This document shows, piece by piece, positions 5,351-35,501 of a stretch of 41,597 bases of DNA. Source of the stretch: a virus; IMG/VR virus record IMGVR_UViG_3300049225_000423, positions 1 through 41,597 of that record; one strand, written 5' to 3'. Position 1 is the first letter of the stretch. The number at the start of each line of letters is the position of its first letter. The position numbers and the translations under genes are program-made. The notes beneath the pieces are model-generated. The model had not been told where the DNA came from, ran no database searches, and was given only the letters and a program-made list of their open reading frames with translations.

Positions 5351-6550
5351 ATGAATATTCCAATTTATGATGGTAACCCGCTTTGGAACCCAGATGCAAC
5401 CGCTTTTGGATTTTACAATAATGATATTGAATTTCAAAATGATTGTATTAAAGTAGCAAAATTTGTAACTACACGTTTAGGATATCCTTTAATGGATGTA
5501 GAATTACAAACATCTTCTATATTTACAGCATTTGAAGAAGCAATTACAATGTATGGGAATGAGTTATATGCCTATTTAATAAGAGAAAATGTATTAGATC
5601 TTACTGGTTTACCTTATGAAAATGTAGATTTAAGTGAAGTTATAGTTCAACCTAATTTTGATACTATAATTAGACTATCAGAACAATATGGTGAAGAAGC
5701 AGGTGTTGGTGGTAATGTACCTTGGTATAAAGGGCATGTTCCTTTAACTTCAAGTGTACAAGATTATGATTTAAAAATTTGGGCTAAACAACAAGGCATA
5801 TCCAGTAGTATAGAAATAAAAAGAGTATTTTATCAAGAACCCATACCCGCATCCGCAAGATATTTAGCCCCATTTGATGGGTTTGGATTTGGAGGTGTAG
5901 CTGCTGCTGGATTAATGGAAATGGGTGGATTTGGTGGTTCAATGGGTTTTTTAATGATGCCTCTAAATTACGATATGCAAGTTATTCAATCAATTGAAAT
6001 GAATCAAATGGTTAGAATGTCTAATTATAGTTTTGAAATACATAATAATGTAATTAGAATATTCCCCATTCCAGGACCATATGAAATTAGTGGAGTAGGA
6101 GATATTGCTGAAGATATAGATGGTTCATGTAATTGTGGCAATTTATGGTTCGAGTATATCATACGAGATGAACGATTAGAAAGCAGTTTAATTTGTGCCG
6201 AAGATAAAATTACAAATGTTTCTAATATGCCATATCAAAACCCTGTATATTCACTAATCAACTCCGTAGGTAGACAATGGATATTTGAAATGACATTGGC
6301 AATTTGTAAAGAAATTTTAGGATATGTTCGCGGTAAATATAGTACAGTACCTATCCCAAATGCGGATATGACATTAAATCAGGCTGATTTATTAGCTGCG
6401 GCAACTGCAGAAAAAACAGCTTTATTAGAAAGATTAAGAGCATATTTTGATGAAAATTCACGTGCTTCATTATTAGAAAGAAAAGTAAGAGAAGCGGATG
6501 CAGTATTAAAAGAATTGGATCAAGTTCCAAGAGTAATTTATATAGGATAG
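5351..6550 (+). CDS. 13: Neck protein, gp13-like
   Basis: This 399-residue product carries a head-completion-type N-terminal helical region (VTTRLGYPLMDVELQTSSIFTAFEEAITMYGNELYAYLIRENV) and a C-terminal helical region (about 330-390). A Gly/Met-rich insert lies near residues 176-200 (FGFGGVAAAGLMEMGGFGG). It is followed without a gap by a gp14-like and a gp15-like gene, the T4 order 13-14-15. In T4, gp13 and gp14 form the neck that joins the filled head to the tail. At 399 residues it is longer than T4 gp13 (309). The call rests on synteny and weak pattern similarity. Confidence 0.65.
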   Translation: MNIPIYDGNPLWNPDATAFGFYNNDIEFQNDCIKVAKFVTTRLGYPLMDVELQTSSIFTAFEEAITMYGNELYAYLIRENVLDLTGLPYENVDLSEVIVQPNFDTIIRLSEQYGEEAGVGGNVPWYKGHVPLTSSVQDYDLKIWAKQQGISSSIEIKRVFYQEPIPASARYLAPFDGFGFGGVAAAGLMEMGGFGGSMGFLMMPLNYDMQVIQSIEMNQMVRMSNYSFEIHNNVIRIFPIPGPYEISGVGDIAEDIDGSCNCGNLWFEYIIRDERLESSLICAEDKITNVSNMPYQNPVYSLINSVGRQWIFEMTLAICKEILGYVRGKYSTVPIPNADMTLNQADLLAAATAEKTALLERLRAYFDENSRASLLERKVREADAVLKELDQVPRVIYIG

Positions 6551-6551
6551 T

Positions 6552-7115
6552 ATGGCAATGTTTGCAAGACGGAGAGATGTCTCTCTGGTAAGACACTTAA
6601 ATAGAGAAGTTATGGGTAATGTTATTACCCAACAAGCGGCTTTCTATCAGTTTAAATTAGAAGAAACGAAAGTTAATATCTATGGTGAAGCTGCAGCTGA
6701 AAAATTTTACAATGGTCCTTTTTTATTTAACTGTTTAATTAATAGATCAGCTCAAGAATATCCTGAAGATTCTGAAGGAATACAATTTCAACAATCTATT
6801 GATTTCTATTTTTTAAGAGATGATTTAAAAGCTGTTAGACCTGGTTACCCAAATGGAAACCCAGAAGCAGAAGTAGTCCCAGATGTTGGAGATATAATTT
6901 TATATCAAGAAGGATATTATGGAGTACAAAGTGTAGTAGCCAACCAATATTGGAGTGGTAAAAACCCTGATTACCCTAATAATAATTCAGATGGTACTGA
7001 TAATCCATTAAACCCTAATTTAGATTTATTTGGAACCAATTTATCAATATTATGTTCAACTTATTATATCCCAGCTGACAAAGTTGCGATTTCACCTTAT
7101 AAAGAAAGATTTTAA
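6552..7115 (+). CDS. 14: Neck protein, gp14-like
   Basis: This 187-residue product begins MAMFARRRDVSLVRHLNREVMGNVITQQAAFYQFKLEETKVNIYGEAA. The order helix, LEETKVNIYGE, then NCLINR is the pattern of T4-type gp14 neck proteins. The start follows the gp13 stop by one base, and the stop overlaps the next ATG (TAATG), so translation is probably coupled. It is expected at the connector-tail junction. Confidence 0.72.
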   Translation: MAMFARRRDVSLVRHLNREVMGNVITQQAAFYQFKLEETKVNIYGEAAAEKFYNGPFLFNCLINRSAQEYPEDSEGIQFQQSIDFYFLRDDLKAVRPGYPNGNPEAEVVPDVGDIILYQEGYYGVQSVVANQYWSGKNPDYPNNNSDGTDNPLNPNLDLFGTNLSILCSTYYIPADKVAISPYKERF

Positions 7116-8101
7116 TGCCGCAGTATAGAAAACCCATACCAAAAACCCAAAAAGAAATCAGTATTGATCAACAAAGACCAACATCTGAAAGGTATGGTAA
7201 TCCTAATATTCCATCACCCTCAAATGAAAGTCAAACAGGTATTTCATTTAATAGATCAGAAAAATTATCTTGGAAAGGAGATACAAATAAACCTTTTTCA
7301 ATTGGTATTCAAGATTTAGATGAAGCAGTATTTTATTATTTTCAAAATGTAATAAAACCTTTTGTTTATCAAAATGGCGAAAGAAGAGAAGTACCAGTAA
7401 TATATGGTTCTCCTGAAAGATGGAAATCATTTCAAAGAGATGGATATTATAGAGATAAAAAAGGTGCTATTATGTTACCTATAATTGTAGTTAAAAGAGA
7501 TACTATAACTAAAGATAGAACTGTTTATAATAAATTAGATGCTAATAGTCCTAATTTATATGGTACATTTCAACGGGGTTATAATCCAAAAAACTTTTAT
7601 AGTAATTGGGCAGCTATTCAAAATAAAATACCTGCTAAACAGTTTTATGCCGTAGCAGTTCCGGATTTTGTTAATTTAGAATATAGTGTAATTGTTCAAA
7701 CCTATTACATGGAACAATTAAATAAAATAATTGAATCTTGTGAATATGCATCTGATGCTTATTGGGGAGACCCCGAAAGATTTAAATTTAGGGCTTTTAT
7801 TGATAGTTTTTCAACCGCAACTGAATTAACAGCAGGTAGAGATAGATTAGTAAAAGGAACATTTAATATTAGATTAAGAGGATATATTATCCCTGATACA
7901 ATACAAAAAGACTTAAATTCTATTTCTAAATACAATTCTAAATCTAAATTTATAATACAAATGGAAACTACATCTAATTCAGAAATATTTGATGTTGATG
8001 TAACTAAAACAAGAGATGGTAGAACAAGAAGACAAAGAGAAGACCAAGGTGAAATATCTAATATATCTGACATAAACCCAGGTACAGAATTAAAAAATTA
8101 A
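7115..8101 (+). CDS. 15: Tail sheath stabiliser / completion protein, gp15-like
   Basis: The 328-residue product follows the T4 gp15 pattern. A strand-rich start with (R)REVPVIYGSPERW corresponds to the T4 segment IRVPITYASKEHF. Then come IMLPIIVVKRD, YSVIVQTYYMEQLNKIIESC (T4: MIYELSIFTRYEDDMFQIVEQ), and RAFIDSFSTATELTAGRDRLVKG followed by FNIRLRGYIIP (T4: AIDEAIDGDNLSRRRIEWSLTFEVNGWMYP). gp15 caps the tail tube and sheath and joins the tail to the neck. The N-terminal about 60 residues are polar and probably disordered. It ends the neck operon, five bases before the next small gene. Confidence 0.8.
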   Translation: MPQYRKPIPKTQKEISIDQQRPTSERYGNPNIPSPSNESQTGISFNRSEKLSWKGDTNKPFSIGIQDLDEAVFYYFQNVIKPFVYQNGERREVPVIYGSPERWKSFQRDGYYRDKKGAIMLPIIVVKRDTITKDRTVYNKLDANSPNLYGTFQRGYNPKNFYSNWAAIQNKIPAKQFYAVAVPDFVNLEYSVIVQTYYMEQLNKIIESCEYASDAYWGDPERFKFRAFIDSFSTATELTAGRDRLVKGTFNIRLRGYIIPDTIQKDLNSISKYNSKSKFIIQMETTSNSEIFDVDVTKTRDGRTRRQREDQGEISNISDINPGTELKN

Positions 8102-10200: not shown

Positions 10201-13200
10201 ATGCCAAATTGGAAAAAAGTAGTACTTAGTGGAAGTAACGCTGAGCTAAATGAACTTAAATTAACAGGTCTTTCTACCCAAGGATCTGAAAACACAACAC
10301 TTGTAATTAATAGTGCCGGAGAAGTAGGTACAAGAGAAAATGCAGCATCCTCTGGTTCAAGTGGATCATCAGGTTCAAGTGGATCAAGTGGTTCTTCAGG
10401 ATCATCAGGTACTTCTGGTTCTAGTGGTTCTTCAGGCTCAAGTGGTTCTTCGGGTTCATCAGGTACTTCAGGTGTAAATGGAGGTACAATAGCAAGATTT
10501 AATGGATATGATGATGGTACTTTAAATACTACTAACTTTTCTACAGTTAATACAACAGCTTTTGTAAAGGTATCACATACCCAGTATGGTTTAGACCCTT
10601 CTATTAATACAAATTATTATACCCATACTAATGATAGTGATACAATTACTATTGATAATGATGGTTATTATATAATTAGTTCTAATGTTAATTTTTTAGT
10701 AGCAAATAGAGGTTCCTTAAGATCATCTATGCAGCAAAACCTTTTAATTAATGGTACAGCTGTTGACTCTTCTAAATCAGATACTTACTCAAGAGGTAGT
10801 GGTTATAATGATGAAGTTAATACATTAACAACACTATATGCTTACTTAAGTGCTAATGACACAGTAAAAATTGAAGTTGATGCTCATAAAATGGACACCT
10901 CAGGTACTGGGAGTGTTACTATACAAGATGCAGTAATTAATATTGCATTTATAACTGGAACAGCCGCTGCTGCTGGTAATGATGGTTCATCAGGTACTTC
11001 TGGTAGTTCAGGTTCAAGCGGTTCATCAGGATCAAGTGGTACATCAGGTAATGATGGTGATGATGGTTCATCTGGTACTTCTGGTTCTTCAGGTTCAAGT
11101 GGCTCTTCAGGTTCATCAGGTAACTCGGGATCATCAGGAACTTCAGGTAGTTCTGGATCATCTGGTTCTAGTGGCTCTTCAGGTAACTCAGGATCCTCAG
11201 GAACTTCAGGTTCAAGTGGTTCAAGTGGTTCATCAGGATCAAGTGGCTCCTCGGGTAACTCAGGTTCATCAGGAACATCTGGTTCTTCTGGTTCTAGTGG
11301 TTCTTCAGGATCATCAGGATCATCAGGTTCATCAGGTAACTCAGGTTCATCAGGAACTTCAGGTTCAAGTGGCTCATCAGGTTCTAGTGGTTCATCAGGA
11401 AATTCAGGTTCATCAGGAACTTCAGGATCATCCGGTAGTTCAGGCTCAAGTGGCTCAAGTGGTTCATCAGGCTCAAGTGGCACATCAGGTAATGATGGTG
11501 ATGATGGTTCATCTGGTACTTCCGGTTCTAGTGGCTCTTCAGGTTCTAGTGGCTCTTCAGGTTCAAGTGGCTCAAGTGGTTCATCAGGTTCCTCTGGTAC
11601 ATCTGGGCAAGATGGTAATTTTGGGGGTGCATCATTTGATTATACTTTTAGTACTTCTACTACAATTACAAATCCTGGAGGGGGCAATATAAGATTAAAC
11701 AACTCAACCCAATTTTCAGCTACATCAATGGCGATTAGTGAGGTTGATGACCAAGGGGAAAGTATTCAAAGTTTCTTACAAACAGTAGATAGTTCAACAT
11801 CAGCTGTAAAAGGTCACGTTAGATTATCTGATAAAGATGATGCAGGTGATTTTCTTTTATTTGCAATATCTGATTTAACAGACAATGGAGCTTGGTGGAC
11901 AATTAATATTAGTAATGAAGCATATGGGGGTAATAGTTTAACTAATGGTGAAGATATTATAGCATCGTTTGTAGTAACGGGTGATAAGGGTGATAGTGGC
12001 TCCAGTGGTACATCTGGTTCATCGGGCTCAAGTGGATCTTCAGGCTCAAGTGGTTCTTCAGGTTCTTCAGGTAACTCAGGCTCATCAGGAACTTCAGGTT
12101 CAAGTGGTTCTTCAGGTTCTTCAGGTTCATCAGGTTCAAGTGGAAATTCGGGCTCATCAGGAACATCAGGCTCTTCGGGTAGTTCAGGCTCTTCAGGCTC
12201 AAGTGGCTCTTCAGGTAACTCAGGTTCATCAGGAACTTCAGGATCATCAGGTAGTTCAGGCTCAAGTGGCTCCAGTGGCTCTTCAGGTACATCTGGTAAC
12301 TCAGGCTCATCAGGAACTTCAGGCTCATCAGGTAGTTCAGGTTCATCCGGTAGTTCAGGCTCAAGTGGTTCATCAGGAACTTCAGGATCATCAGGTTCTT
12401 CAGGCTCAAGTGGTTCTTCAGGTTCTTCAGGTAACTCAGGATCATCAGGAACTTCAGGCTCAAGTGGTTCTTCAGGTTCTTCAGGTTCATCAGGTTCAAG
12501 TGGTTCTTCAGGCAACTCAGGTTCATCAGGAACTTCAGGCTCAAGTGGCTCTTCGGGATCAAGTGGCTCATCAGGTTCTAGTGGTTCATCAGGAAATTCA
12601 GGTTCATCTGGTACATCAGGCTCTAGTGGCTCATCAGGTACTAGTGGATTATTGTCTTTAACAGGAACTACAAACAATGGTATAATTACTTATGATAGTA
12701 CAACGGGAGGTGGTAATGTAGAAGTTAATGTTACAGCTACTGCTGCAACATTCTGTTCACAAACCACTGCTTTTAATGTAACAGCCCAAGGTGCTAATTT
12801 CTGTACAGATCAATCAATTTTTGGTTGTAATAATAACTTTGGTAAAATAATTATTGCAGATGATTATTATGGGGGTGAATTAGCTATACTGACTGATAAT
12901 GATTATATCATTGGAGGACAAGTAGCTAATTGTGAAATGTCATATGCAGGAGTTGATCCATATAATGGAACTATAAAAGCTAATTTCCAAAATAGAACTG
13001 TTTGTCTAGGATGTACAAATTGTCATATTGTTGGAAGTAGTTATTCAACAATTGCAGGTGGAGTTTGTAATAAAAGTAATGGTTTAAATTCTTTTATTGG
13101 AGCAGGTATTCTAAATACATCATCAGCAGCTGATAGTTTTATAGGTGCAGGAAAGAACAATGAAATTACTGGTGTATGCGCAGCAATAGTAGGTGGTGAA

Positions 13201-14865
13201 GGTAATGAAAATGCTAGTATTAGAGGGTTTATAGGTGCGGGTAATGGAAATTCATTATTTACTAATGGTAGTGTAATAGTAGGAGGTAAAGGTAATTTTT
13301 CAAAAGGAGGAGATGCTTTTGACTTTATAGGAGGGGGTTTTAACAATTGTATAATTCCTTCCCTAAGTACTGCTTGTGGTAATGTTATTGTTGGTGGTAT
13401 GTGTAATAATAATACTAATGACTCCCATGTTTCATTCCTAGGAGGGGGTTTAGAAAATTGTACTAACGCCTTTGCTCAAGTTATTGGTGGAGGTACGAAT
13501 AATACTCCATTTGGAGAATATGATGTTATTGTAGGGGGTAAAGGAGGTTATTCAAAAGGAGGTAATTATTCTTTTATAGGTGGAGGTGCAGGTAATTTTA
13601 TAGAAACTGCTGGTTGCTCAGTTGTTGTTGGTGGTGAAACAAACTGTATAACAAATGGTATTTATTCAACTATTGGAGGTGGTCAAGGAAATAAAATCGA
13701 GTCAAACAGAGGATTTATAGGAGGAGGAGCTAGTAATAGAATTTGTACTAATTCTCATTGTAGTACTATTGGGGGAGGTTATTCTAATGAAATTGGTGCA
13801 AGCGATTGTTGGGGAACCATTGCTGGTGGATGTGATAATTCAGTCCAACAAGATTATGGTACTGTTGCAGGAGGTCGTCAAAACTGTGCAAGGGGTTCCT
13901 ATTCAACTGTTGGTGGTGGTTATAGTAATGACTCATCAAATCAATATAGTGTAACAGCTGGAGGACGTGACAACTGCTCCAATGGTAACTACTCCAGTAT
14001 TGGTGGTGGGTATGATAATTATGTTTCTAACACTTATGGTACAGTAGCTGGCGGTTATGGTAACTGTGCTAGAGGTGCTTGTAGTTCTGTTGGAGGAGGA
14101 TTTAGTAATGATACTCAAGGAACAGCCTCTCCTATTGGTGGAGGAAATGATAACACAATTTCCTCAGGAATTTCTCAAGCTGTTATTGCAGGGGGTGGTA
14201 AAAATACTGTCTCTGCTAATGGTGGGGCAATATTAGGAGGATGTTCAAATACTGTTTCATCAGGTCAAGGATTTATAGGGAGTGGGTGTGCAAATACAAA
14301 TAATGGTTGTATGAGTGGTATCATATCAGGAAAAAATAATAATATAAATAGCAAAACCTGTTCCTTTATTATTGGTACCGATATTACAGCTTTATCAAAT
14401 TGTACTACTTTTGTAAATAATTTTGCTTTCCATGCACATAATAATCAAACACCATATTTAGGAACTGCTGCTACCGCAGGTGAATTAATTTATATAGGTT
14501 CTTCAAGTGTGACAGCAGGAAATCTTTATTATTTATTAGAACCAGTATCAGGTACATCTTCATGGACCTTAGCGGATGCAGACGCAGCTTCTTCTTCAAC
14601 AAATATGCTCGCAATAGCTGCGGGAACTGGAAATTCAAATGCTGTAGGTATGATGATAAGAGGATTTGCTAGATTTACTTCAGTATTCAATCTTACAGGA
14701 GGAACTATAGGTCAACCATTATATGTTCATACAACAGCAGGAGCAATTACTCAAACTGCTCCTTCGGGAACAGGAGATGTTGTAAGAGTAGTAGGACATT
14801 TAATTGATGATTCTACTGAAGTAATTTACTTTAACCCAGATGGAGCTTGGGTAGAAATATCTTAA
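10201..14865 (+). CDS. Giant modular fibre: (Gly-Ser-Ser)n repeats, C1q-like domain, Cys-rich beta-roll, receptor-type C-terminus
   Basis: This is a 1554-residue mosaic. Residues 1-50 are the N-terminal module shared with the 8546 protein. GSS triplet tracts are at 52-91, 259-472 and 594-816. Residues 92-258 look like a C1q/TNF-type jelly roll (TITIDNDGYYIISSNVNFL, NLLINGT, VTIQDAVINIAFI). Residues 473-593 are a domain typical of phage collagen-like proteins (TNPGGGNIRLNN, then WWTINISN, leading to GDKGDSG). About 940-1395 is a YadA-head-like beta-roll of IGGG-x2-N and AGG-x2-N repeats with unusually many Cys. About 1415-1554 is the common fibre C-terminus (GQPLYVHTTAG, TGDVVRVVGH, IYFNPDGAWVEIS). 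It is probably the main trimeric adhesin and a candidate glycosylation substrate. Confidence 0.88.
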   Translation: MPNWKKVVLSGSNAELNELKLTGLSTQGSENTTLVINSAGEVGTRENAASSGSSGSSGSSGSSGSSGSSGTSGSSGSSGSSGSSGSSGTSGVNGGTIARFNGYDDGTLNTTNFSTVNTTAFVKVSHTQYGLDPSINTNYYTHTNDSDTITIDNDGYYIISSNVNFLVANRGSLRSSMQQNLLINGTAVDSSKSDTYSRGSGYNDEVNTLTTLYAYLSANDTVKIEVDAHKMDTSGTGSVTIQDAVINIAFITGTAAAAGNDGSSGTSGSSGSSGSSGSSGTSGNDGDDGSSGTSGSSGSSGSSGSSGNSGSSGTSGSSGSSGSSGSSGNSGSSGTSGSSGSSGSSGSSGSSGNSGSSGTSGSSGSSGSSGSSGSSGSSGNSGSSGTSGSSGSSGSSGSSGNSGSSGTSGSSGSSGSSGSSGSSGSSGTSGNDGDDGSSGTSGSSGSSGSSGSSGSSGSSGSSGSSGTSGQDGNFGGASFDYTFSTSTTITNPGGGNIRLNNSTQFSATSMAISEVDDQGESIQSFLQTVDSSTSAVKGHVRLSDKDDAGDFLLFAISDLTDNGAWWTINISNEAYGGNSLTNGEDIIASFVVTGDKGDSGSSGTSGSSGSSGSSGSSGSSGSSGNSGSSGTSGSSGSSGSSGSSGSSGNSGSSGTSGSSGSSGSSGSSGSSGNSGSSGTSGSSGSSGSSGSSGSSGTSGNSGSSGTSGSSGSSGSSGSSGSSGSSGTSGSSGSSGSSGSSGSSGNSGSSGTSGSSGSSGSSGSSGSSGSSGNSGSSGTSGSSGSSGSSGSSGSSGSSGNSGSSGTSGSSGSSGTSGLLSLTGTTNNGIITYDSTTGGGNVEVNVTATAATFCSQTTAFNVTAQGANFCTDQSIFGCNNNFGKIIIADDYYGGELAILTDNDYIIGGQVANCEMSYAGVDPYNGTIKANFQNRTVCLGCTNCHIVGSSYSTIAGGVCNKSNGLNSFIGAGILNTSSAADSFIGAGKNNEITGVCAAIVGGEGNENASIRGFIGAGNGNSLFTNGSVIVGGKGNFSKGGDAFDFIGGGFNNCIIPSLSTACGNVIVGGMCNNNTNDSHVSFLGGGLENCTNAFAQVIGGGTNNTPFGEYDVIVGGKGGYSKGGNYSFIGGGAGNFIETAGCSVVVGGETNCITNGIYSTIGGGQGNKIESNRGFIGGGASNRICTNSHCSTIGGGYSNEIGASDCWGTIAGGCDNSVQQDYGTVAGGRQNCARGSYSTVGGGYSNDSSNQYSVTAGGRDNCSNGNYSSIGGGYDNYVSNTYGTVAGGYGNCARGACSSVGGGFSNDTQGTASPIGGGNDNTISSGISQAVIAGGGKNTVSANGGAILGGCSNTVSSGQGFIGSGCANTNNGCMSGIISGKNNNINSKTCSFIIGTDITALSNCTTFVNNFAFHAHNNQTPYLGTAATAGELIYIGSSSVTAGNLYYLLEPVSGTSSWTLADADAASSSTNMLAIAAGTGNSNAVGMMIRGFARFTSVFNLTGGTIGQPLYVHTTAGAITQTAPSGTGDVVRVVGHLIDDSTEVIYFNPDGAWVEIS
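10354..10473 (+). repeat. First (GSS)n tract of the giant fibre
   Basis: These are Gly-Ser-Ser/Gly-Thr-Ser triplets directly after the N-terminal module, encoding residues 52-91. No proline is present. Confidence 0.95.
10975..11616 (+). repeat. Second (GSS)n tract of the giant fibre
   Basis: This encodes residues 259-472. It is mostly GSS with spaced GTS and GNS, and twice has the interruption GNDGDDG, as in phage collagen-like proteins. A higher-order unit of about ten triplets (GNS-GSS-GTS-GSS...) recurs. Confidence 0.95.
11980..12648 (+). repeat. Third (GSS)n tract of the giant fibre
   Basis: This encodes residues 594-816. It opens with GDKGDSG, the classic entry into phage collagen-like repeats, and then has higher-order GNSGSSGTSG units separated by runs of GSS. 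Confidence 0.95.
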
Positions 14866-22626: not shown

Positions 22627-25296
22627 ATGGCAGAAACATTAATATCTCCAGGTGTAATAGCAAGAGAAAACGATCAATCTTTTGTTACTTCACAGCCCAT
22701 TGAAAGAGGTGCGGCAATTATAGGACCAACTGTAATTGGTCCTGTAGAAAGACCAACTCTAATTAGTTCATTTAGTTCATACCAAGCATTATTTGGTGGG
22801 GCTCTATTAAGTGGTTCTAACGAGTACACATATCTTACTTCTATTGCAGCAAACCAATATTTTCAAAATGGTGGGACTTCACTTTTAGTAACAAGAGTAA
22901 CTTCGGGATCTTTTAGCTCAGCTACTTCTACAACAATTCAAAATAATTTAGAATCTCCAACTGGTGGATTAATTGGAAATATCTTTAGTGGATATAAAAC
23001 CTCAACAGGTGGAGGTAGTGGTTCATCAGCCCCTGGAACTTATACAAATGTTCCATTAGTAACAGATACAGGAGCTGGATCAAGCGCTGAAGTAACAGTA
23101 ACAACTAGTAATAGTAATGGTATTTTATTTACTGGTACTCCTTTTACCTCCATAATTGTACAATCAGGTTCAAATATGGTAGCTGGACCATATACTGATG
23201 TATCAGGTACTGGTGGAGATGGAACAGGTGCATTATGGGATATTACAGTTAGTACAGGAGATACATTTTTACCCGGAGCTGAAGTAACAGCTGGTGGTAC
23301 TACAATTACTGGGGTTACTCCTTCTACAACTACTACAAACATTAACGTATCTGATTTAATTTCAAATGGTGGTAGTGTTTCAGGTGGTGGATCTGGAGGT
23401 GTAGTAACCGTAACCAGTGATGGTGCAGGCGAAATTACAAAAATTACACTAGTATCTGGAGGATCTAGTTATACAAATACTTCAGTTATTAATGTTACGG
23501 CTGCAGGTATTAATGCTTTAGCAGGCGCTCCTTTAGGATCAGGTGCTGCAGGTGGTGCTGCAACATTTTCTATCCAAAATGCTGATTTAGCAGGAACAAT
23601 TAACGCAGGTGATATTACACTAGATGCTGGTAATACTACTTTAGGGTCAGGATATAAAGTTGGAGATCAAATCTCAATCCCAGCTACAAGTTTAGGTGCT
23701 TCAAGTGGAGATGCTCTTATTTTCCAAATCACCCAACCTCAAATATTAACTGAGATTTCAGGTGTTTCAATCACAGAAGATGGATTAGGTTATGCAGATG
23801 GTGATGAAGTAAGTATTGCAAGTGGGACAGCTGGTGTATTTTCAACAGATCCCGTTTTTGTGTTAACTGATGCAATGATTGAAAATCAAACAGCTTTTGT
23901 ATTAGAAACAATTTCTGAAGGTGAAATTATGAATAATACATACCCTGCTGGGTCTGATACAAGTGGTCTTGAAATAGCAGGTGGAGCTTTAACTAGTGGT
24001 TCATCTCTTAACGTAAGATGGGAAATTACAAGTGTTAATACATCTTCAGGTGTATTTTCATTAGCTATTAGAAGAGGTAATGATAATACTAATAATAAAG
24101 TAGTATTAGAAACATATAATAATATTTCATTAGATCCATTTTCTCCAAATTATATTTCAAGAGCAATTGGTGATATATCTACTAATCTAGTAACAGAAGG
24201 AGTAGATACCTTTTTACAAGAATCAGGTTCATTTGCGCAAATTTCTAACTATGTTAGAGTAAGACAAGTAAATACCCCAACACCAAACTATTTTAATAAT
24301 GATGGAACTGCAAAATCTGAATATACAGCTTCTTTACCTATTATAGGATCAGGTTCATTTGATGGAGCTGTTGGTAGAAATATTCCTGTAGGAAGAGCAG
24401 CTAATTTTTATCAAGATATTAATAATATTGATACTCAAGGATTAATAGGATCCGATTATAATAATGCAATTGCTTTATTATCTAGTCAAGATGATTACCA
24501 GTACAATGTACTATCAGTACCTGGTTTAACTAATCAAGACCATGCGGGTCAAATCACTACTGTAATGAATAATTCAATTACACGAGGTGATAATATTGCA
24601 GTAATTGATCTAGTAAGATATAACCAACCAATTGCTACAGTAACAAACCAAGCAGGAGGTATTGATAATAGCTATACAGCTACCTATTGGCCATGGTTAC
24701 AAACAGTTGATCCAAATTCTGGTCAATTAGTTTATATACCTGCTTCTACGTTTATACCAGGAGTATATGCGTTTACAGATGCTTCAAGTGATCCATGGTT
24801 TGCACCCGCAGGTATTACTAGAGGTGGAATGGGACAAGTTGTTCGAGCTGAAAGAAAATTAACTTCTAATAATAGAGATACTTTATATGAAGCAAATGTT
24901 AATCCAATTGCTACATTCCCACAACAAGGAGTAGTAGTATTTGGACAGAAAACATTACAAAAAGCTGCTTCTGCATTAGATAGAGTAAATGTACGTAGAT
25001 TATTAATTACACTTAAAGAATATATTTCTCAAATTGCAGATAATTTAGTATTTGAAGCTAATACAATTGCAACTAGACAAAATTTCTTAACCCAAGTTAA
25101 CCCATATCTAGAATCAGTACAACAAAGACAAGGATTATATGCTTTTAAAGTAGTAATGGATGAAACAAACAATACACCAGATGTAATAGATAGAAATGAG
25201 TTAGTAGGACAAATTTTCTTACAACCAACTAGAACAGCTGAATTTATTATGTTAGATTTCAATGTATTACCAACTGGAGCAACTTTTCCAGCATAA
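22627..25296 (+). CDS. 18: Tail sheath protein gp18 with a large surface insertion
   Basis: The 889-residue product has the family N-terminus (LISPGVIARENDQSFV, then GAAIIGPTVIGPVERPTLISSF and the ANQYFQNGGTSLLVTRV region). Its C-terminus is also typical (NVRRLLITLKEYISQIADNLVFE, RQNFL, LVGQIFLQPTRTAEFIMLDFN). It forms the contractile sheath. T4 gp18 has 659 residues. The excess is a Gly/Ser/Thr-rich beta insertion at about 117-425 with a repeated Y-x(2-4)-GD-x-(V/I)-x-I unit (SGYKVGDQISIPA, LGYADGDEVSIAS), presumably on the outer surface of the tail. Confidence 0.95.
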   Translation: MAETLISPGVIARENDQSFVTSQPIERGAAIIGPTVIGPVERPTLISSFSSYQALFGGALLSGSNEYTYLTSIAANQYFQNGGTSLLVTRVTSGSFSSATSTTIQNNLESPTGGLIGNIFSGYKTSTGGGSGSSAPGTYTNVPLVTDTGAGSSAEVTVTTSNSNGILFTGTPFTSIIVQSGSNMVAGPYTDVSGTGGDGTGALWDITVSTGDTFLPGAEVTAGGTTITGVTPSTTTTNINVSDLISNGGSVSGGGSGGVVTVTSDGAGEITKITLVSGGSSYTNTSVINVTAAGINALAGAPLGSGAAGGAATFSIQNADLAGTINAGDITLDAGNTTLGSGYKVGDQISIPATSLGASSGDALIFQITQPQILTEISGVSITEDGLGYADGDEVSIASGTAGVFSTDPVFVLTDAMIENQTAFVLETISEGEIMNNTYPAGSDTSGLEIAGGALTSGSSLNVRWEITSVNTSSGVFSLAIRRGNDNTNNKVVLETYNNISLDPFSPNYISRAIGDISTNLVTEGVDTFLQESGSFAQISNYVRVRQVNTPTPNYFNNDGTAKSEYTASLPIIGSGSFDGAVGRNIPVGRAANFYQDINNIDTQGLIGSDYNNAIALLSSQDDYQYNVLSVPGLTNQDHAGQITTVMNNSITRGDNIAVIDLVRYNQPIATVTNQAGGIDNSYTATYWPWLQTVDPNSGQLVYIPASTFIPGVYAFTDASSDPWFAPAGITRGGMGQVVRAERKLTSNNRDTLYEANVNPIATFPQQGVVVFGQKTLQKAASALDRVNVRRLLITLKEYISQIADNLVFEANTIATRQNFLTQVNPYLESVQQRQGLYAFKVVMDETNNTPDVIDRNELVGQIFLQPTRTAEFIMLDFNVLPTGATFPA

Positions 25297-25338: not shown

Positions 25339-25827
25339 ATGGCAGTATTAAACCCAAACGAAATATTTTTCACAGCATTTGAACCAAAACAAAAGAATAG
25401 ATTTATCTGTTTTGTAGATGGATTCCCTGCTTACATTATGAAAGGTGTAGGAGCTGTAACTGTATCACAAGGAACAGTACCTTTGAATCACATTAATGTT
25501 CAAAGATTTGTAAAAGGTAAAACAACTTGGGGTACCATTCAGTTTACATTATTTGACCCAATCACTCCATCTGGTGCACAATCAGTAATGGAATGGGTTA
25601 GATTACACCACGAATCAGTAACTGGTAGAGATGGTTATAGTGATTTCTATAAGAAAGATCTTACAATCAATGTACTAGGACCTGTAGGTGATATTGTATC
25701 AGAATGGATCATCAAAGGAGCAATGATTACAGAAGCTTCATTTGGAGATTTCAACTGGGATACTGAAAATGCTGCTCAAGAAATTACAATGACTGTACAA
25801 CCAGATTATTGTGTATTAAATTTCTAA
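25339..25827 (+). CDS. 19: Tail tube protein gp19
   Basis: This 162-residue protein is close to the T4 gp19 length (163). It has PKQKNRFICFVDGFPAYIMKGVG near the start, INVQRFVKGKTTWGTIQFTLFDPI in the middle, WVRLHHESVTGRDGYSDFYKKDLTI, and a C-terminal EITMTVQPDYCVLNF, all typical of T4-like tube proteins. It directly follows the sheath gene as in T4 and has its own late box and a terminator, consistent with high expression. Confidence 0.95.
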   Translation: MAVLNPNEIFFTAFEPKQKNRFICFVDGFPAYIMKGVGAVTVSQGTVPLNHINVQRFVKGKTTWGTIQFTLFDPITPSGAQSVMEWVRLHHESVTGRDGYSDFYKKDLTINVLGPVGDIVSEWIIKGAMITEASFGDFNWDTENAAQEITMTVQPDYCVLNF

Positions 25828-25929: not shown

Positions 25930-26658
25930 ATGGCTGAATTTAAATTTCCAAGCGAAGAAGTAGAATTACCTTCTAAAGGTTTAATATATTCTAAAGATCA
26001 TCCCTTATCAAGCGGTAAAGTAGAAATTAAATATATGACTGCTAAAGAAGAGGATATTTTAACTAATCAATCTTATATCCAAAAAGGAACAGTATTAAAT
26101 AAATTATTAGATTCTGTAATTTTAACTGAAGGAGTTAAACAACAAGATTTAATCTTAGGAGATAAAAATGCAGTACTAATTGCTACTCGTATACTAGGTT
26201 ATGGTGCAGAATATAAATTTACTTACAGAGGAGAAGAAAAAGTTATTGATTTATCTACTTTAGAAAATAAAGAATTTGATGAATCGTTAATAACCCCTGG
26301 TAAAAATGAATTTTCTTTTACTCTTCCTCATTCTAAAACACCTATTACATATAAGATTCTAACAGGAGTAGATGAGAGTAAAATTGATAGGGAATTAGAA
26401 GGATTAAAGAAAATTAATAAAAATTCTTCTCCTGAGTTAAGTACAAGATTAAAATATATAATTACATCGGTTAATGGTGAAACTGGAGCTAAAGAAGTTA
26501 GAGAATTTGTTGATAATTTCTTATTAGCTATAGATTCTAAAGCATTAAGAAAACACCTTAGAGAAACTCAACCTGATGTAGACCTTCGTTATATAGACGA
26601 AGATGGGAAGGAGGTAGCCATCCCCATTGGGATTAGCTTTTTTTGGCCTGAGCTCTAA
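25930..26658 (+). CDS. Baseplate hub / tail-assembly chaperone (T4 gp26-like family), frame-0 product
   Basis: This 242-residue protein starts with FKFPSEEVELPSKGLIYSKDHPLSSGKVEIKYMTAKEEDILTNQSYIQKG (about 4-53), the hallmark of the T4 baseplate/hub-assembly family that includes gp26. It ends ISFFWPEL. The gene lies between the tube gene and the tape-measure gene, where contractile-tailed phages keep tail-assembly chaperones, often made in a short and a frameshifted long form. A second open frame (gp51/T-domain-like) overlaps its end in the +1 frame with no ATG of its own. The short form is therefore probably one of two products. Confidence 0.8.
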   Translation: MAEFKFPSEEVELPSKGLIYSKDHPLSSGKVEIKYMTAKEEDILTNQSYIQKGTVLNKLLDSVILTEGVKQQDLILGDKNAVLIATRILGYGAEYKFTYRGEEKVIDLSTLENKEFDESLITPGKNEFSFTLPHSKTPITYKILTGVDESKIDRELEGLKKINKNSSPELSTRLKYIITSVNGETGAKEVREFVDNFLLAIDSKALRKHLRETQPDVDLRYIDEDGKEVAIPIGISFFWPEL

Positions 26659-26938
26659 AATAGCACCTCAATTTAGGGTAGGGTTATTTACTCAAATACA
26701 CTCTATATTATTTCATGGTAAAGGTGGATATGATTACCATACTGTATACAATATGCCAGTATGGTTACGTAAATTTACTTTTAAACAAATATCTGACTTT
26801 TATGATGAAAAAAATAAAGCACAAAAAACAGCACAAACTTCAGGTAAAACTTCATTAGTAGGGGAAGATGGTAAAGTTAATGCACCCGCATTTAAAAATG
26901 CTTCTAAATCATATCAAAATAAAAGCAGCTATAAATAG
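26627..26938 (+). CDS. C-terminal extension of the tail-assembly chaperone, probably made by ribosomal frameshifting
   Basis: The frame is open from 26618 (after TAG at 26615) to TAG at 26936. It has only a TTG at 26627 near its beginning, and the first ATG is at about 26753. The encoded RVGLFTQIHSILFHGKGGYDYHTVYNMPVWLRKFTF is a coherent conserved-looking domain that would be cut by starting at the ATG. It lies +1 relative to the upstream gene. Shift sites could be the T7 run at 26638-26644 or CTC-TAA at 26653-26658, which would join FFWPEL to KIAPQFRVG. A homopolymer indel in the source data cannot be excluded. Confidence 0.65.
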   Translation: MGLAFFGLSSKIAPQFRVGLFTQIHSILFHGKGGYDYHTVYNMPVWLRKFTFKQISDFYDEKNKAQKTAQTSGKTSLVGEDGKVNAPAFKNASKSYQNKSSYK

Positions 26939-26949
26939 TTGCTTTTTTT
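26921..26949 (+). terminator. Rho-independent terminator overlapping the chaperone stop
   Basis: AAAAGCAGCTA pairs with TAGTTGCTTTT (one wobble) around a short TAAA loop, then T to 26949. It includes the TAG stop of the extension frame and ends two bases before the next late box. Confidence 0.75.
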
Positions 26950-26974: not shown

Positions 26975-29167
26975 ATGGCTACACCACAAGAAATCCAAAA
27001 ACAACTAGAACGTATAGCAAAACTATATGAGCAATTAGGTGAAAAAAACCCATTTGCTGGTGCTGATGCTTCTAAACTTTCTCAATCTGAAGCCGAAGTT
27101 AAAAAATTAAGTGATTCCTTAAATGGTGTAAATAATAAACTTAAAGAAATTAATGAAGACGCAGAAGGATTAGTAGGGGCTTTTAAAGCTACTATAGATG
27201 AAATATCGGGTGTTAAATCCGGATTAGTAGATTCTAGAAAAATATTTAAAGAATTAACTTCTGTAGCTGAAAAATTACAACAAGATCAAGCAGGCATAAC
27301 AAACCTAAATGAAAAGGATTTAGATGTTTTAAGACAAAAATTTGATATAAATAAAAAGGATTTAAAAACTGCCGAGGATAGTCTTAATAGACAAATTGAT
27401 GAATTATTAGCAAAAGATAAATTAACAGCTGCTGAAGGCAGAAAATTAGATTTAGCAGAAAAGTCATTAAATACAATAATAGCACAAAAGGATGAACAAG
27501 ATTCTTTACTTAATATCTTAGATGAAGAACTTAAAAAAAGGGAAGAATTAGAAAATGCTACAGGTAAAAACCTAGGGGTTGCTGGGGGAGCTTTAGGAGG
27601 ATTAGAAGGTGTTTTAGATAAAGTAGGTGGGGGTAAATTTGGTAAAATGCTTGGCATTGAAGATGCTATGAAAGCCGGTACTAAAGAAGCTAAGCGTTTA
27701 GCTAATCCTAAAATAGGAGGTAAAGCTGGTAGTTTAGGTAACCAATTTAAAGTAGCAAATAAAATGATTGGCACAATGGCTAAATCATTAATGAAAGCTT
27801 TAGGACCAGTAGCTATTATAGCTGAATTGGTTAAAGGATTATTAGCTGCGGATAAACAAACCAATGAGTTAGGTAGGTCAATGATGATGACCAAAAATGA
27901 AGCTAGAGGATTCTCAGCTAATATCTCAGCAGCTGCAAGATCTAATTATCAAATGGGTATTACGGGTACAAAAGTACTTGAAAATGTAACTAAATTAAAC
28001 AAACAATTTGGTTTTATAACTGAGTTTAGTGGAGAGACTTTAGTCAGTATGACTAAATTAACTTATACTCTAAAAATCGGAGAAGAAGCTGCAGGTAATT
28101 TAGCAGCAGCAGCTGAAGCAACTGGACAAAATTTCGAAGATAATTACAAAAATATTCTTGCTGCAAGTTATGAATTACAACAACAAGCAGGAACTCAAGT
28201 TGATTTAAGAGCTGTACTTGAAGAAACAGGTAAAGTAACGGGTCAAATTAGAGCTAATATGGGGGGTAATACTGTTGAAATAGCAAAAGCAGTTACAAAT
28301 GCTCGTTTATTAGGTGCTGAAATGGGAACTATAGCAGCAGCTGGAAAGCAACTTTTAGATTTTGAAAGTTCTATATCAAAGGAAATGGAAGCAGAGTTAT
28401 TACTTGGTAGAGATATAAATCTTGAAAGAGCAAGAGCAGCTGCTTTAACAGGAGATCAAGTAACACTCCAAAATGAATTAGCTAAAGAGATGGGTTCATT
28501 TGAAGATTTTACTAAAATGAATGTTATTCAACAAGAAGCTTTAGCAGGTGCTTTAGGAATGAGTGCTGATCAAGTTGCTGATATGTTATTTAATCAAGAA
28601 ACAATGAATAAATCAGCTAAAGAATTACGTGCTTTGGGCAAAGATGAATTAGCAAATAGATTAGAACAAAAAACAGCACAAGATAAAATGAATGCCGCTA
28701 TGGCAGAACTAAAACAAGTTTTTGTTGATTTAGGAACTGCATTATCTCCTATATTAAACATACTATCTGTTGCAGCTGGTATTATTTCAACTATAATTGG
28801 CTTTACCCAAGATTTATTAGGATTTATAAACCCATTTGGAGATTCATTTGGTAAAATAGACTTTGAAAGTTCTGCTGGTGTTGGGGCAGCTAAAGGATTA
28901 GGAAAGAGTATTGGGATAAAAGATGGTGTTATAGGCCCCAGTGGAGATCTAATTACAACTGCTCCCGAAGATTTTCTTATTGCTACTAAAGACCCGCAAC
29001 AAATGGTTTCAAATGTAGCATCAAAATCAACTCCCCCAATTGATACATCAAAGTTAGAAAGATTACTAGAAGCATCCCTTAATAAAAAATCCCCAGCCCC
29101 AGTAATAAAAATGAATGATGTAAAATTAGGTACTGCTGTAGATATGGGTGCATTTTCTATACAATAA
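26975..29167 (+). CDS. Tail tape-measure protein
   Basis: This 730-residue protein has a long coiled-coil N-terminal half (about 1-200), hydrophobic segments at about 262-285 (MAKSLMKALGPVAIIAELVKGLLA) and 590-618 (LGTALSPILNILSVAAGIISTIIGFTQDLLGF), and a C-terminal IGIKDGVIGPSGDLITTAPEDFLIATKDPQ, a motif common at the end of phage tape measures. It follows the chaperone genes as expected. In T4 the equivalent role belongs to gp29 (590 residues). It sets tail length and fills the tube before DNA ejection. Confidence 0.85.
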   Translation: MATPQEIQKQLERIAKLYEQLGEKNPFAGADASKLSQSEAEVKKLSDSLNGVNNKLKEINEDAEGLVGAFKATIDEISGVKSGLVDSRKIFKELTSVAEKLQQDQAGITNLNEKDLDVLRQKFDINKKDLKTAEDSLNRQIDELLAKDKLTAAEGRKLDLAEKSLNTIIAQKDEQDSLLNILDEELKKREELENATGKNLGVAGGALGGLEGVLDKVGGGKFGKMLGIEDAMKAGTKEAKRLANPKIGGKAGSLGNQFKVANKMIGTMAKSLMKALGPVAIIAELVKGLLAADKQTNELGRSMMMTKNEARGFSANISAAARSNYQMGITGTKVLENVTKLNKQFGFITEFSGETLVSMTKLTYTLKIGEEAAGNLAAAAEATGQNFEDNYKNILAASYELQQQAGTQVDLRAVLEETGKVTGQIRANMGGNTVEIAKAVTNARLLGAEMGTIAAAGKQLLDFESSISKEMEAELLLGRDINLERARAAALTGDQVTLQNELAKEMGSFEDFTKMNVIQQEALAGALGMSADQVADMLFNQETMNKSAKELRALGKDELANRLEQKTAQDKMNAAMAELKQVFVDLGTALSPILNILSVAAGIISTIIGFTQDLLGFINPFGDSFGKIDFESSAGVGAAKGLGKSIGIKDGVIGPSGDLITTAPEDFLIATKDPQQMVSNVASKSTPPIDTSKLERLLEASLNKKSPAPVIKMNDVKLGTAVDMGAFSIQ

Positions 29168-31868: not shown

Positions 31869-34800
31869 ATGGCAGGAAATATAATTGGAGAACCAATAAA
31901 ACCTATAATTGGGGAACAAGTTAAATTAAGACAATTAGTCCATGGCTCAGGTTATAATGAAAATTCTATTCAAAGATCTCCTGAGGTATTAAACTTTTTA
32001 AATAATAAGAATTCTTGGATTAAATTTGCTTCCGGTGTTAGTTTAGATGATGGTTATAGATTAAAAGATTTAGCTAAATTTGAAACTTCTAATTATTTTA
32101 CCGAAAATGATATAGATTCTTTATTAGGAAAAAATCTAGCTAAGAATTATATTTTATTTAACACAATGCAATCCTTAACCCAAGGAGCAGAACTTACTAC
32201 TACAGGTGAGGGAAAAGATGCTGTAACCACTCAAACAAGAGCAGCTACATACCAAAAAAGAAGCGGTGTAAGAAATACTAATAGCTGGGATGGAAGTAAT
32301 GGTAAGATGTATGGAGGAATAGGAGGTAATAGTAGAGGACTACAACCCTCTCCTGGGATAACAGGAATAACAGTTGAATCAGTAAATAGAGGATCTATTA
32401 GAAAAGCAACTGTTACTTTAAAAGCATATAATAAATTTCAATTTGGTATTATTGAAATTCTTTATTTACGACTAGGGTATTTAATGATGCTAGAATGGGG
32501 ATGGGATAAATATATAGATTCAATAGATGAAAATAATAAACCTATTATAAAAAATGTAGAATCTACTGTTATAGAAAATACTTGGTTTAAAGATAAATAC
32601 TATACTCAGCTAGAAATGTTACAAAATATAAATGGTTTTGTAGACAGATATAAAGGTAACTATCAAGGATTTTTTGGAAAAGTAAATAATTTTACCTGGA
32701 ATTTAAATGCAGATAACACATATGATATTACAGTAAATTTAATTAGTTTAGGAAGTGTAATAGAATCTTTACAGGTTACAGTTCCCTCTTCTCCAATGAC
32801 TACTTCTCAATTAAACGAAAGGAAAGAGGCACTAAAAAAGATATACCAAATTAACTCAGATGAAGGTGAAGAACAATATGGGGACAACTCAGTACTTACT
32901 AATTTAGGGTCAGATAGATTAACAAATTTTGTTGCACAACAAATTTCAACTTTTTTTACTCAAAATTTAGGAAAAAATAAAAATTATTATTACTTTCCTA
33001 ATGCTGTAGGTTTATCTAAAAAAGATAGTGATAAAAAAAATATTAGCACTAATAGAAAAAAGATACCTCCTTCTTCAAGATACTATATTAGGTTTGGAGA
33101 ATTATTAAAAGAAATAGAAAACAATGTAATATTAAGGGTTGTAAATGGTGATGCTTTTAAAGAATCTAAAATTACATTTGAAAGATCAGAAAAGCATACT
33201 AGAATTAATTACGAACCTAATTTAATCCCTTTAGATCCCTCAATTTGTATATTTAAACCTATTTATACCGAAGAGTTAGGGATTACAGATACTATAAATG
33301 TTCCTGCTTTTAAAGGGTTAAAAGATTTTGTAGTAGAAAAGGATAATGTTTATTATGGTCAATTAATGAATATTTATCTTAACTTAGATTTTGTATCCAA
33401 TACTTTAAATTCTAATAAAAATGATAAAAATGAATTAGATTTATTTAATTTTATGCAAAAATTACTTAGCGGAATTAATAGATGCATGGGTAATGTTACA
33501 GAACTTACTACTAGTATAAAAGATGATAGAATAGTTTATATTTTAGATGAAAATCCAATCACAGGGTATGATATAGTATACCCACCAAAAAATAAAGAAG
33601 TAGAATTTAATATAATAGGGTATACCCCTAATAGTGGTTCTTCATTTGTAACAGATTTTAATTTTCAAACAAAAATAACTCCTAAGTTAATGACCCAAAT
33701 TTCAATTGGAGCAACAGCAGCTGGATCAGAATCAAATTCTTTAGATGCTGTAGGTTATAAAAATTGGAATAAAGGACTTAAAAATAGATTTGAAGAAAGA
33801 TACGAAGCAGGTCCCATTACACGGTATGTTGCTCCTACTCAAGAATCTGTTGCTACTGAAGAAGAAACTTATTATACTAATTTATATGATAAATTTAAAG
33901 AAGAAAGTAGTTGGAGATTAATACCTCCTTCTTATGAATGGACTTATAAGGGCTTTACAAAATCTTATGGTACTGATTCTACTTCTTTTTGGAATAGTAG
34001 AACAACTAATATGAATGACACTCAATTACAAATCCAAGTTAGGGATTCGATTGAGAATATTGATCAAGAAATTGCTAATAGGGGGATCGAATTAATTACA
34101 GAAGGAGAAAAAATGAATGATTATCCAACTTATTTATTAGATGGGTTTGGAGGAACTGGTACTAAACAAGTAGAAGTAAAAGTATCTAGAGCTGAAAGAG
34201 ATGCAAAACTAAGAGAAAATAGAAAAGCAAAAAGAGAGGGAACATTAACAGGTTCAATATCACAAGGAGAAGGACTAAAAACAAAAATAGTAAACCAAGA
34301 GGTAAACACAGGAGACGCCCTATATTGGTACTCATCTGATAATTCAGATTTTGTAGAAAGAGGTTATAATACTTTTAAACAATATAAAACTACTTTAGAC
34401 CAATATCAATATGAAGTATCAGATGTAACATCTGGGGGGACTGGTTTTATTCCTGTTACTTTAGGACTAACATTTGAAGGATTAGGTGGAATTAAAATTT
34501 ATAATAAATTAAAAGTAAATCAAACTGCACTTCCTGCTTCCTATCCTTCGGCATTAAAATTTATTGTAGACGGAATAAACCACGAAATATCAGAAAATAA
34601 ATGGGTAACAAATGTAACTACAATATCGCAACCCAAAACCTCAAAACCCGTAAAAAGAAAAATATCCCCATCAAAAACAATTGAAGTTAATAAAAAAGAA
34701 GTTAAAGAATTTACAGGCCCACAAGAACAAGCTGTTTCTTTACTAAAAAAGATACCTTTAACAGCCCCAACTAATAATGGATTAATATATTACCCTAAAG

Positions 34801-35501
34801 AGACTCCTAAAATTCAAATTGTATTACATCATACTGCTATATTTGGGGCATCTATTGAAAATGTAATTAAAAGTTGGGGAAAAAGAAGTGACCATGTTTC
34901 TACACACTTTATTATACAAAGAGATGGTGATTATGATCAATTATTTCCTTTAAAATATTGGGGTAATCATGTAGGAAGTTCATTAAAAGGTAATTCTTAT
35001 TTACAAAAAAGTACAATTTCTATTGAATTAGAAGCCTTAGGGTATTTAAAATACATAAATGGTACAGGAGCATTATCAAATGGTTCCTTTAGAGATACTG
35101 CAAAGTTTAAACAGGGTAGTAGGACATATACATACCAACAATTAAAACAAGGCTACCCAGATGAAGCAGTAGCACGTCCCTATAAAATAAAAAAAGATGG
35201 AAGTTTATCAAAAGTACCATCATATAAAAACTATTCTTATTATCATGCATATACAAAAGCCCAATTAGCTACCTTAAAAAAGGTATTAAACCAAATTAAA
35301 TCTGAATACCCGAACATTTCTATAGGATCTCAATATAGTGGGGCAAATGGTTTTTATGAACAATTTCCAAATAAAAAGAGTGTTGCATCAACTGCTTTTA
35401 AATTTAACCAAGGTATTTATACACATAATTCCTATAGAACAGATAAAAGTGATGTTTTTCCACAAAAAGAATTAATAGAATTATTAAAAGAATTTAATTA
35501 A
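31869..35501 (+). CDS. Baseplate hub protein with C-terminal N-acetylmuramoyl-L-alanine amidase
   Basis: This is a 1210-residue protein. The N-terminal part carries GLQPSPGITGITVESVNRGSIRKATVTLKA and QFGIIEILYLRLGYLMMLEWGWDKY (about 157-216), a hallmark of marine myophage hub proteins. About 980-1205 is an Amidase_2 domain, with IQIVLHHTA (His987/His988), THFIIQRDGDYDQLFP, WGNHVG (His1034), ISIELEA, and near the end THNSYRTDKSDVFPQ supplying the later metal-ligand-type His and Asp. It thus combines the roles of T4 gp27/gp5: a hub with a cell-wall hydrolase for penetration. The chemistry is amidase rather than lysozyme. Confidence 0.82.
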   Translation: MAGNIIGEPIKPIIGEQVKLRQLVHGSGYNENSIQRSPEVLNFLNNKNSWIKFASGVSLDDGYRLKDLAKFETSNYFTENDIDSLLGKNLAKNYILFNTMQSLTQGAELTTTGEGKDAVTTQTRAATYQKRSGVRNTNSWDGSNGKMYGGIGGNSRGLQPSPGITGITVESVNRGSIRKATVTLKAYNKFQFGIIEILYLRLGYLMMLEWGWDKYIDSIDENNKPIIKNVESTVIENTWFKDKYYTQLEMLQNINGFVDRYKGNYQGFFGKVNNFTWNLNADNTYDITVNLISLGSVIESLQVTVPSSPMTTSQLNERKEALKKIYQINSDEGEEQYGDNSVLTNLGSDRLTNFVAQQISTFFTQNLGKNKNYYYFPNAVGLSKKDSDKKNISTNRKKIPPSSRYYIRFGELLKEIENNVILRVVNGDAFKESKITFERSEKHTRINYEPNLIPLDPSICIFKPIYTEELGITDTINVPAFKGLKDFVVEKDNVYYGQLMNIYLNLDFVSNTLNSNKNDKNELDLFNFMQKLLSGINRCMGNVTELTTSIKDDRIVYILDENPITGYDIVYPPKNKEVEFNIIGYTPNSGSSFVTDFNFQTKITPKLMTQISIGATAAGSESNSLDAVGYKNWNKGLKNRFEERYEAGPITRYVAPTQESVATEEETYYTNLYDKFKEESSWRLIPPSYEWTYKGFTKSYGTDSTSFWNSRTTNMNDTQLQIQVRDSIENIDQEIANRGIELITEGEKMNDYPTYLLDGFGGTGTKQVEVKVSRAERDAKLRENRKAKREGTLTGSISQGEGLKTKIVNQEVNTGDALYWYSSDNSDFVERGYNTFKQYKTTLDQYQYEVSDVTSGGTGFIPVTLGLTFEGLGGIKIYNKLKVNQTALPASYPSALKFIVDGINHEISENKWVTNVTTISQPKTSKPVKRKISPSKTIEVNKKEVKEFTGPQEQAVSLLKKIPLTAPTNNGLIYYPKETPKIQIVLHHTAIFGASIENVIKSWGKRSDHVSTHFIIQRDGDYDQLFPLKYWGNHVGSSLKGNSYLQKSTISIELEALGYLKYINGTGALSNGSFRDTAKFKQGSRTYTYQQLKQGYPDEAVARPYKIKKDGSLSKVPSYKNYSYYHAYTKAQLATLKKVLNQIKSEYPNISIGSQYSGANGFYEQFPNKKSVASTAFKFNQGIYTHNSYRTDKSDVFPQKELIELLKEFN

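Follow-up and report, generated by a model that had tools for sequence, protein, structure and literature searches.

Programmed frameshifting in tail-assembly chaperone genes and the gp26/gp51 chaperone pair of phage T4 were both known before this analysis, and the relationship between gp26 and gp51 was reportedly described by Vladimirov et al. in 2022 (Virology 566:9-15), in a study of T4-like chaperones. An older review regards the chaperone frameshift as conserved except in T4 (PMC5009743), and papers citing the 2022 study describe one short gene and one long fusion gene in T4-like phages (PMC10885494) and mention poly-T -1 signals for them (PMC12846349). The present analysis concerns a locus in the window, by which is meant the whole 41,597 bases (32% G+C) of IMG/VR virus record IMGVR_UViG_3300049225_000423, where a chaperone gene of the T4 gp26 family overlaps an open +1 frame encoding a further domain. 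What appears to be new is a +1 version of the chaperone frameshift, with paired 5' signals, in the gp26 family; no report of a +1 shift in the gp26/gp51 family was found in the literature searched, with most subscription papers outside its coverage. To our knowledge, bacteria and their phages seldom use programmed +1 frameshifting at sense codons, and we know of no general rule for the signals that direct it.

The frame-0 chaperone gene (G-like; 25930-26658, on the + strand, as are the elements of the shift site and the sheath, tube and probable tape-measure genes) encodes 242 amino acids ending in ...IPIGISFFWPEL, and the +1 frame, open from 26618 to 26938, contains the C-terminal (T) domain (26639-26938, beginning FFGLSSKIAPQFR...), which would give a fusion product of 335 amino acids. 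The overlap holds a run of seven Ts (T7; 26638-26644) and the sequence CTC-TAA (26653-26658), and the earliest ATG of the +1 frame stands at 26753; these positions, reported in a first-pass annotation of the DNA, were all confirmed, together with a +1-frame TTG at 26627 that had been overlooked and near whose position many relatives have no start codon. Relatives were collected by a scan that returned 518, of which 80 were kept, and by further scans that added diverse relatives; the loci were thinned at 80% identity and then treated as independent, so that the significance values given here, uncorrected for phylogeny, are overstated to some degree. The +1 frame remains open for more than 150 nucleotides (nt) past the site in 250 relatives. 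The differences at the three codon positions, counted in the +1 phase, change from 0.10/0.36/0.17 upstream of the site to 0.19/0.10/0.38 downstream of it, and it follows from this flip that the coding frame changes there, at a place that the comparison fixes to within about four codons. In 75 divergent loci, synonymous conservation is clearly above expectation only around the site. Of 65 divergent loci with two adjacent Phe residues at the site, 63 encode them by TTT TTT, a proportion that drops to 25 of 69 for such pairs at other places in these loci (Fisher p 8e-15, uncorrected for relatedness). T7 alone is unremarkable in a window that holds eight runs of T7 or more; TTTTTTTGGCCTGA is found once. 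At the level of sequence, the overlap is thus confirmed as real, chance being ruled out by conservation, and the programmed shift into the +1 frame that the first-pass annotation had proposed is strongly supported by this conservation and by the flip in coding constraint, and is very likely.

The shift element, TTTTTTTGGCCTGA (26638-26651), coincides with the excess synonymous constraint, and a +1 slip would take place in it at the codons UUU-UUU before UGG. Across relatives its common form is V-UUU-UUU-UGG-CCU plus variants, the T run and GGCCT being conserved; TTTTTTTGGCCT is present in 144 and TTTCTTTGGCCT in 27 of 192 nonredundant loci, a set that includes a few rows from -1 relatives or Thornevirus. 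Rarer +1 forms are TTC TTT TGG CCT, CTT TTT TGG CCT and TTT CTA TGG CCT, and further ones are TTT TTT TAC CCT, TTT CTT TAC CCT and TTT CTA TTC CCT; TTT CTT TGG is another +1 variant that keeps a slippery codon. In codon 1 or 2, all +1 forms of the window's clade have either UUU with a pyrimidine as the next base or YUU with U as the next base, so that each offers a codon at which the transfer RNA (tRNA) in the P site could move forward by one base and pair again. The base before the run is a C (26637), with which the -1 heptamer T_TTT_TTT is not formed; a T directly precedes TTTTTT in 1 of 142 nonredundant loci, where codon usage would predict 52%, so that this heptamer is disabled throughout nearly all of the set. 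A TGA (26649-26651) ends the -1 frame just past the site, as does a -1 stop at offset +11 in 62 of the 75 divergent loci. A canonical -1 frameshift (X_XXY_YYZ) was rejected on these two grounds and because the second domain lies in the +1 frame. The frame-0 stop (TAA, 26656-26658) is conserved in neither identity nor position, being TAA, TAG or TGA and lying 15 to 36 nt downstream of the start of the T run (+18 in 48/75 and +24 in 21/75). The alignment of relatives suggested by the first-pass annotation thus finds both frames and the T run conserved but not CTC-TAA, and the RF2-type shift at the stop that it had also considered is unsupported for that reason. Two loci, L268 and L272, have the T domain under its own ATG, with TTC TTG TAT CCT and TTC CTT TGG CCA, respectively, at the site. 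Both nest inside the +1 clade and keep F-L-(Y/W)-P in frame 0 with relaxed wobble bases; on these sequences they are natural losses of the frameshift in which the slippery run has decayed.

Two elements precede the run. A Shine-Dalgarno (SD)-like element, AAGGAGGT (26608-26615), lies 22 nt 5' of it, a distance that also tells against an RF2-type shift. The anti-SD energy is -11.2 at the shift site versus a median of 0 at the 34 gene starts of the window, and anti-SD complementarity in relatives is -8.6 versus -5.3 for a synonymous null (t -11); an SD-like element is present in 73% of divergent loci, as compared with 16% of open reading frame (ORF) starts and 7% of random 20-mers. The gene starts of the window (e.g. 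22627, 25339 and 26975) are without SDs and match the anti-SD less often than random sequence does, a pattern known from Bacteroidota, and because the window's genes lack SDs the element is unlikely to serve initiation. Closer to the run, a hairpin, ATCCC-CATT-GGGAT (26620-26633; -5.4 kcal/mol), ends 4 nt before it. In relatives, the region from -24 to -3 folds more stably than its synonymous shuffles do (mean z -1.6, t -7), as against z +0.1 for a control region from -120 to -60, and gives z -0.63 (t -4.6) under a stricter null in which every column retains its codon composition. The stem sequences vary by lineage, for example CGCATCC-cgtt-GGATGCG in L003 and TACCG-atta-CGGTA in L258, and usually end 3-5 nt before the run. 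A downstream stimulator in the +1 clade was considered and rejected, the 3' windows being barely more stable than shuffles and similar to windows further down, and a search of Rfam gave no convincing match at the site. In a 70S system, a hairpin adjacent to the E site was found to mimic an internal SD, stimulating +1 and attenuating -1 shifts (PMC6321510), and in Flavobacterium johnsoniae SDs are rarely used and shifting at prfB is poor (PMC12421855). The hairpin may compensate for poor SD use in hosts like F. johnsoniae.

This pattern is best read, and probably correctly, as a +1 slip on the tandem pyrimidine codons. The same frame would be entered by a +1 slip at the proline codon CCU-N, where tRNA-Pro would move to CUN in the manner of Listeria phage PSA and of SPP1 (CCC-U); Pro codons are known +1 sites (PMC5009743, PMC6316719) and CCT is found in 74 of the 75 divergent loci. 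Such a slip leaves the avoidance of TTC at both Phe codons and of T before the run unexplained, however, CCT is needed anyway when WP in frame 0 and GL in the +1 frame are both encoded, and Thornevirus relatives (SP-15, LIS04 and GXN1) keep the Pro codon of the +1 frame while the frame-0 residue varies (A, T or P), all of which makes it an unlikely explanation. A -2 slip like that of phage Mu, also raised by the first-pass annotation, would be possible for T7 itself, where the P-site tRNA could re-pair two bases back. It fits poorly with the TTC TTT TGG of the L257-L271 clade, where -2 would place UCU under tRNA-Phe, so that the re-pairing is not available to all relatives; upstream duplexes are moreover reported to oppose backward slips (PMC6321510), and we regard a -2 slip as distinctly improbable. 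RNA polymerase slippage on T7, giving messenger RNAs with a changed number of Us, would agree with the ability of such runs to slip and with the retention of the run in most loci, yet TTTCTTT, TTCTTTT and TTTCTAT keep the arrangement with runs of only 3-4 Ts, and the base before the run should be irrelevant to it; this mechanism was rejected on the TTTCTTT and TTCTTTT variants and has hardly any probability left. Homopolymers are generally error-prone, but the change of frame recurs in 250 loci that come from many samples and in sequenced isolates (immuto and Mel-JY01). This conserved arrangement refutes both a broken gene and an error of sequencing or assembly, explanations whose chance is negligible.

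The T domain might instead be started separately, for example at TTG 26627 behind AAGGAGG, perhaps with coupling to termination of the chaperone. This TTG lies 12 nt after GGAGG, the T domain is an ATG gene of its own in L268 and L272, and the T frames of cyanophages contain a conserved ATG. Against this, in 25 of the 75 divergent loci the +1 frame offers no ATG, GTG or TTG ahead of its conserved core, in 43 of the 75 a stop interrupts it no more than 30 nt upstream, and the window's genes make no use of SDs. The T run would also be left unexplained, and its wobble bases are relaxed in precisely those loci whose T domain has a start of its own: such a start, which had been named beforehand as a finding that would speak against a frameshift, occurs solely in the derived loci L268 and L272, with their decayed run. 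A separate start is accordingly very improbable. The +1 slip at the Phe codons has points against it as well. No single slip codon explains all forms, because the slip in TTT CTA variants must come one codon before that in TTC TTT variants; CCT is no less invariant than the T run; and for a pure T7 the +1 and -2 slips are indistinguishable from sequence. As to the 5' signals, the SD-like element is missing from a quarter of the loci, 30 of 75 loci are without a stem of 4 base pairs or more 5' of the run, and column covariation of the hairpin is weak because its register varies.

The chaperone part belongs to the T4 gp26/gp51 family by sequence or fold homology. The frame-0 protein matches phrog_150 (baseplate hub) with E 3.7e-6 and, weakly, PF12322 with E 0.0019, short of the curated cut-off, and the relative GXN1 reached E 4e-25 in a homology test for the T4 gp26/gp51 family (PF12322, phrog_150). 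An AlphaFold model of the frame-0 protein (predicted local distance difference test, pLDDT, 92) matches T4-like baseplate hub chaperones in BFVD, among them the SP-15 hub subunit at E 7e-16, and the HK97 tail-assembly chaperone 2OB9 and YqbN 3KLU were the top two PDB chains on re-alignment (VIA), at modest Z scores of 5.1 and 5.0 over residues 1-93. The designation 'T4-like' in the first-pass annotation is therefore correct in the sense of a gp26-family chaperone. By hhalign profile comparison, the T domain is homologous to the C termini of KVP40, cyanophage and T4 gp51 (probability 96%, E 1.7e-9), so that the +1 frame of the window encodes a counterpart of the end of T4 gp51; its predicted model is only moderate (pLDDT 74). 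The proteins of T4 genes 26 and 51 (L247:5803-6429 and 6480-7229) are both PF12322 members, and because gp51 spans phrog_150 nearly to its end and additionally matches phrog_634, it is the fused long form with a C-terminal T domain.

From the +1 slip on the tandem Phe codons, we infer the following scheme for a G/GT pair of tail-assembly chaperones, including its direction, exact codon, roles of the 5' elements, efficiency and function. Most ribosomes would complete the 242-amino-acid chaperone, and a minority would slip one base forward on UUU-UUU: with UGG in the A site awaiting its tRNA, the P-site Phe-tRNA would leave its UUU and pair with the overlapping one. The shifted ribosomes would continue as ...ISFFGLSSKIAPQFR... 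and produce the 335-amino-acid chaperone with its added T domain. The SD-like element and the hairpin, both behind the ribosome, would drive the frame forward while preventing slips in the other direction. If lambda and T4 gp26/gp51 are a guide, the tape-measure protein would be coated by the short form, and the rare long form would recruit tube subunits. The predicted tryptic junction peptides of the window's phage differ between the slips, namely EVAIPIGISFFGLSSK for +1 at UUU, EVAIPIGISFFFGLSSK for -2 and EVAIPIGISFFWPSSK for +1 at CCU.

The chaperone gene sits between the tail tube gene and a long ORF that probably encodes the tape measure, the position by which a G/GT pair is recognized. 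The tail sheath protein (22627-25296; phrog_23, E 3e-64; PF04984) and the tail tube protein (25339-25827; phrog_4542, E 1e-25) are encoded upstream. The probable tape-measure protein (26975-29167; 730 amino acids) gave no family match of its own in phrog and Pfam searches, and is assigned from its position after the chaperone and from the gene at the same position in Flavobacterium phage immuto, annotated as tail tape measure protein. At the end of the T frame, a stem-loop followed by T7 (26922-26949) resembles an intrinsic terminator before the tape-measure gene. Elsewhere in the window are a 1554-amino-acid protein with many collagen-like repeats (10201-14865; PF01391, E 4e-65) and a 1210-amino-acid tail or baseplate protein (31869-35501) carrying an amidase domain (PF01510) at its C terminus.

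Other members of the family appear to shift differently. Cyanophage-type gp26 genes contain T_TTT_TTC in 60 of 60 nonredundant loci, with an unstructured 5' region (z 0 to +0.8) and a strongly structured 3' region at 11-71 nt (z -4.8) that has a consensus hairpin. The gp26 ends of cyanophages and KVP40 (L281-L360 and L250-L252) are accompanied by a small annotated gp51 ORF in the -1 frame, with strong 3' structure in the cyanophage contigs, and a -1 frameshift from gp26 to gp51, unannotated in the records examined, is probable in these loci. The +1 and -1 sites occupy the same Phe-Phe column. In the tree, the +1 clade forms one well-supported branch; the deep branches are long and do not show which way the change went, and the Thornevirus relatives are also +1. 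The latter (GXN1, SP-15 and LIS04; L004, L248 and L256) carry the T domain in the +1 frame at a different site, FF followed by NCC CGA, where CGA may be a slow codon and which is possibly a separate +1 solution. Taken as a whole, widespread T4-related phages without SD initiation signals may use a two-part 5' stimulator, consisting of an anti-SD match and an E-site hairpin, to drive a sense-codon +1 shift that evolved at Phe-Phe codons where sister lineages use a -1 heptamer and 3' structure, a proposal to which we would give an even chance. If true, one gene family would show frameshift direction switched by moving RNA structure from 3' to 5', and several hundred natural variants of one +1 site, together with comparable -1 sites and loci that have lost the shift, make the RNA features that set direction testable. 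Annotation is corrected as well, since the second half of the chaperone is labelled a separate or hypothetical protein in sequenced phages.

Among known systems, lambda gpG/gpGT, whose frameshift is conserved in long-tailed phages, likewise yields a short and a long chaperone from a single gene preceding the tape measure, the T domain being added to the long form. Lambda shifts -1, whereas the window has its T domain in the +1 frame and proteins of the T4 gp26 family. Phage Mu reaches the same net frame by -2, and the variants of the window's clade fit +1 better. The +1 shifts in tail or capsid genes, namely that predicted in the chaperone of haloarchaeal virus HSTV-2 and those of Listeria phage PSA and SPP1 (PMC5009743, PMC6316719), are comparable in direction, although in PSA and SPP1 the shift takes place at CCC codons of major tail or capsid genes. 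The prfB (RF2) site resembles the window's in its P-site slip on a pyrimidine codon (CUU-U or UUU-U) and its 5' SD-like element, and differs in an SD spacing of 3 nt, as against 22 nt bridged by a hairpin, and in its autoregulation, whereas the shift in the window would set a product ratio. T4 gp26/gp51, KVP40 and the cyanophages share with the window a homologous chaperone and T domain and the same Phe-Phe column; T4, however, has two paralogous genes, and the cyanophages have a -1 heptamer that is accompanied by 3' structure and lacks a 5' hairpin, whereas the window's clade has a +1 site with 5' signals.
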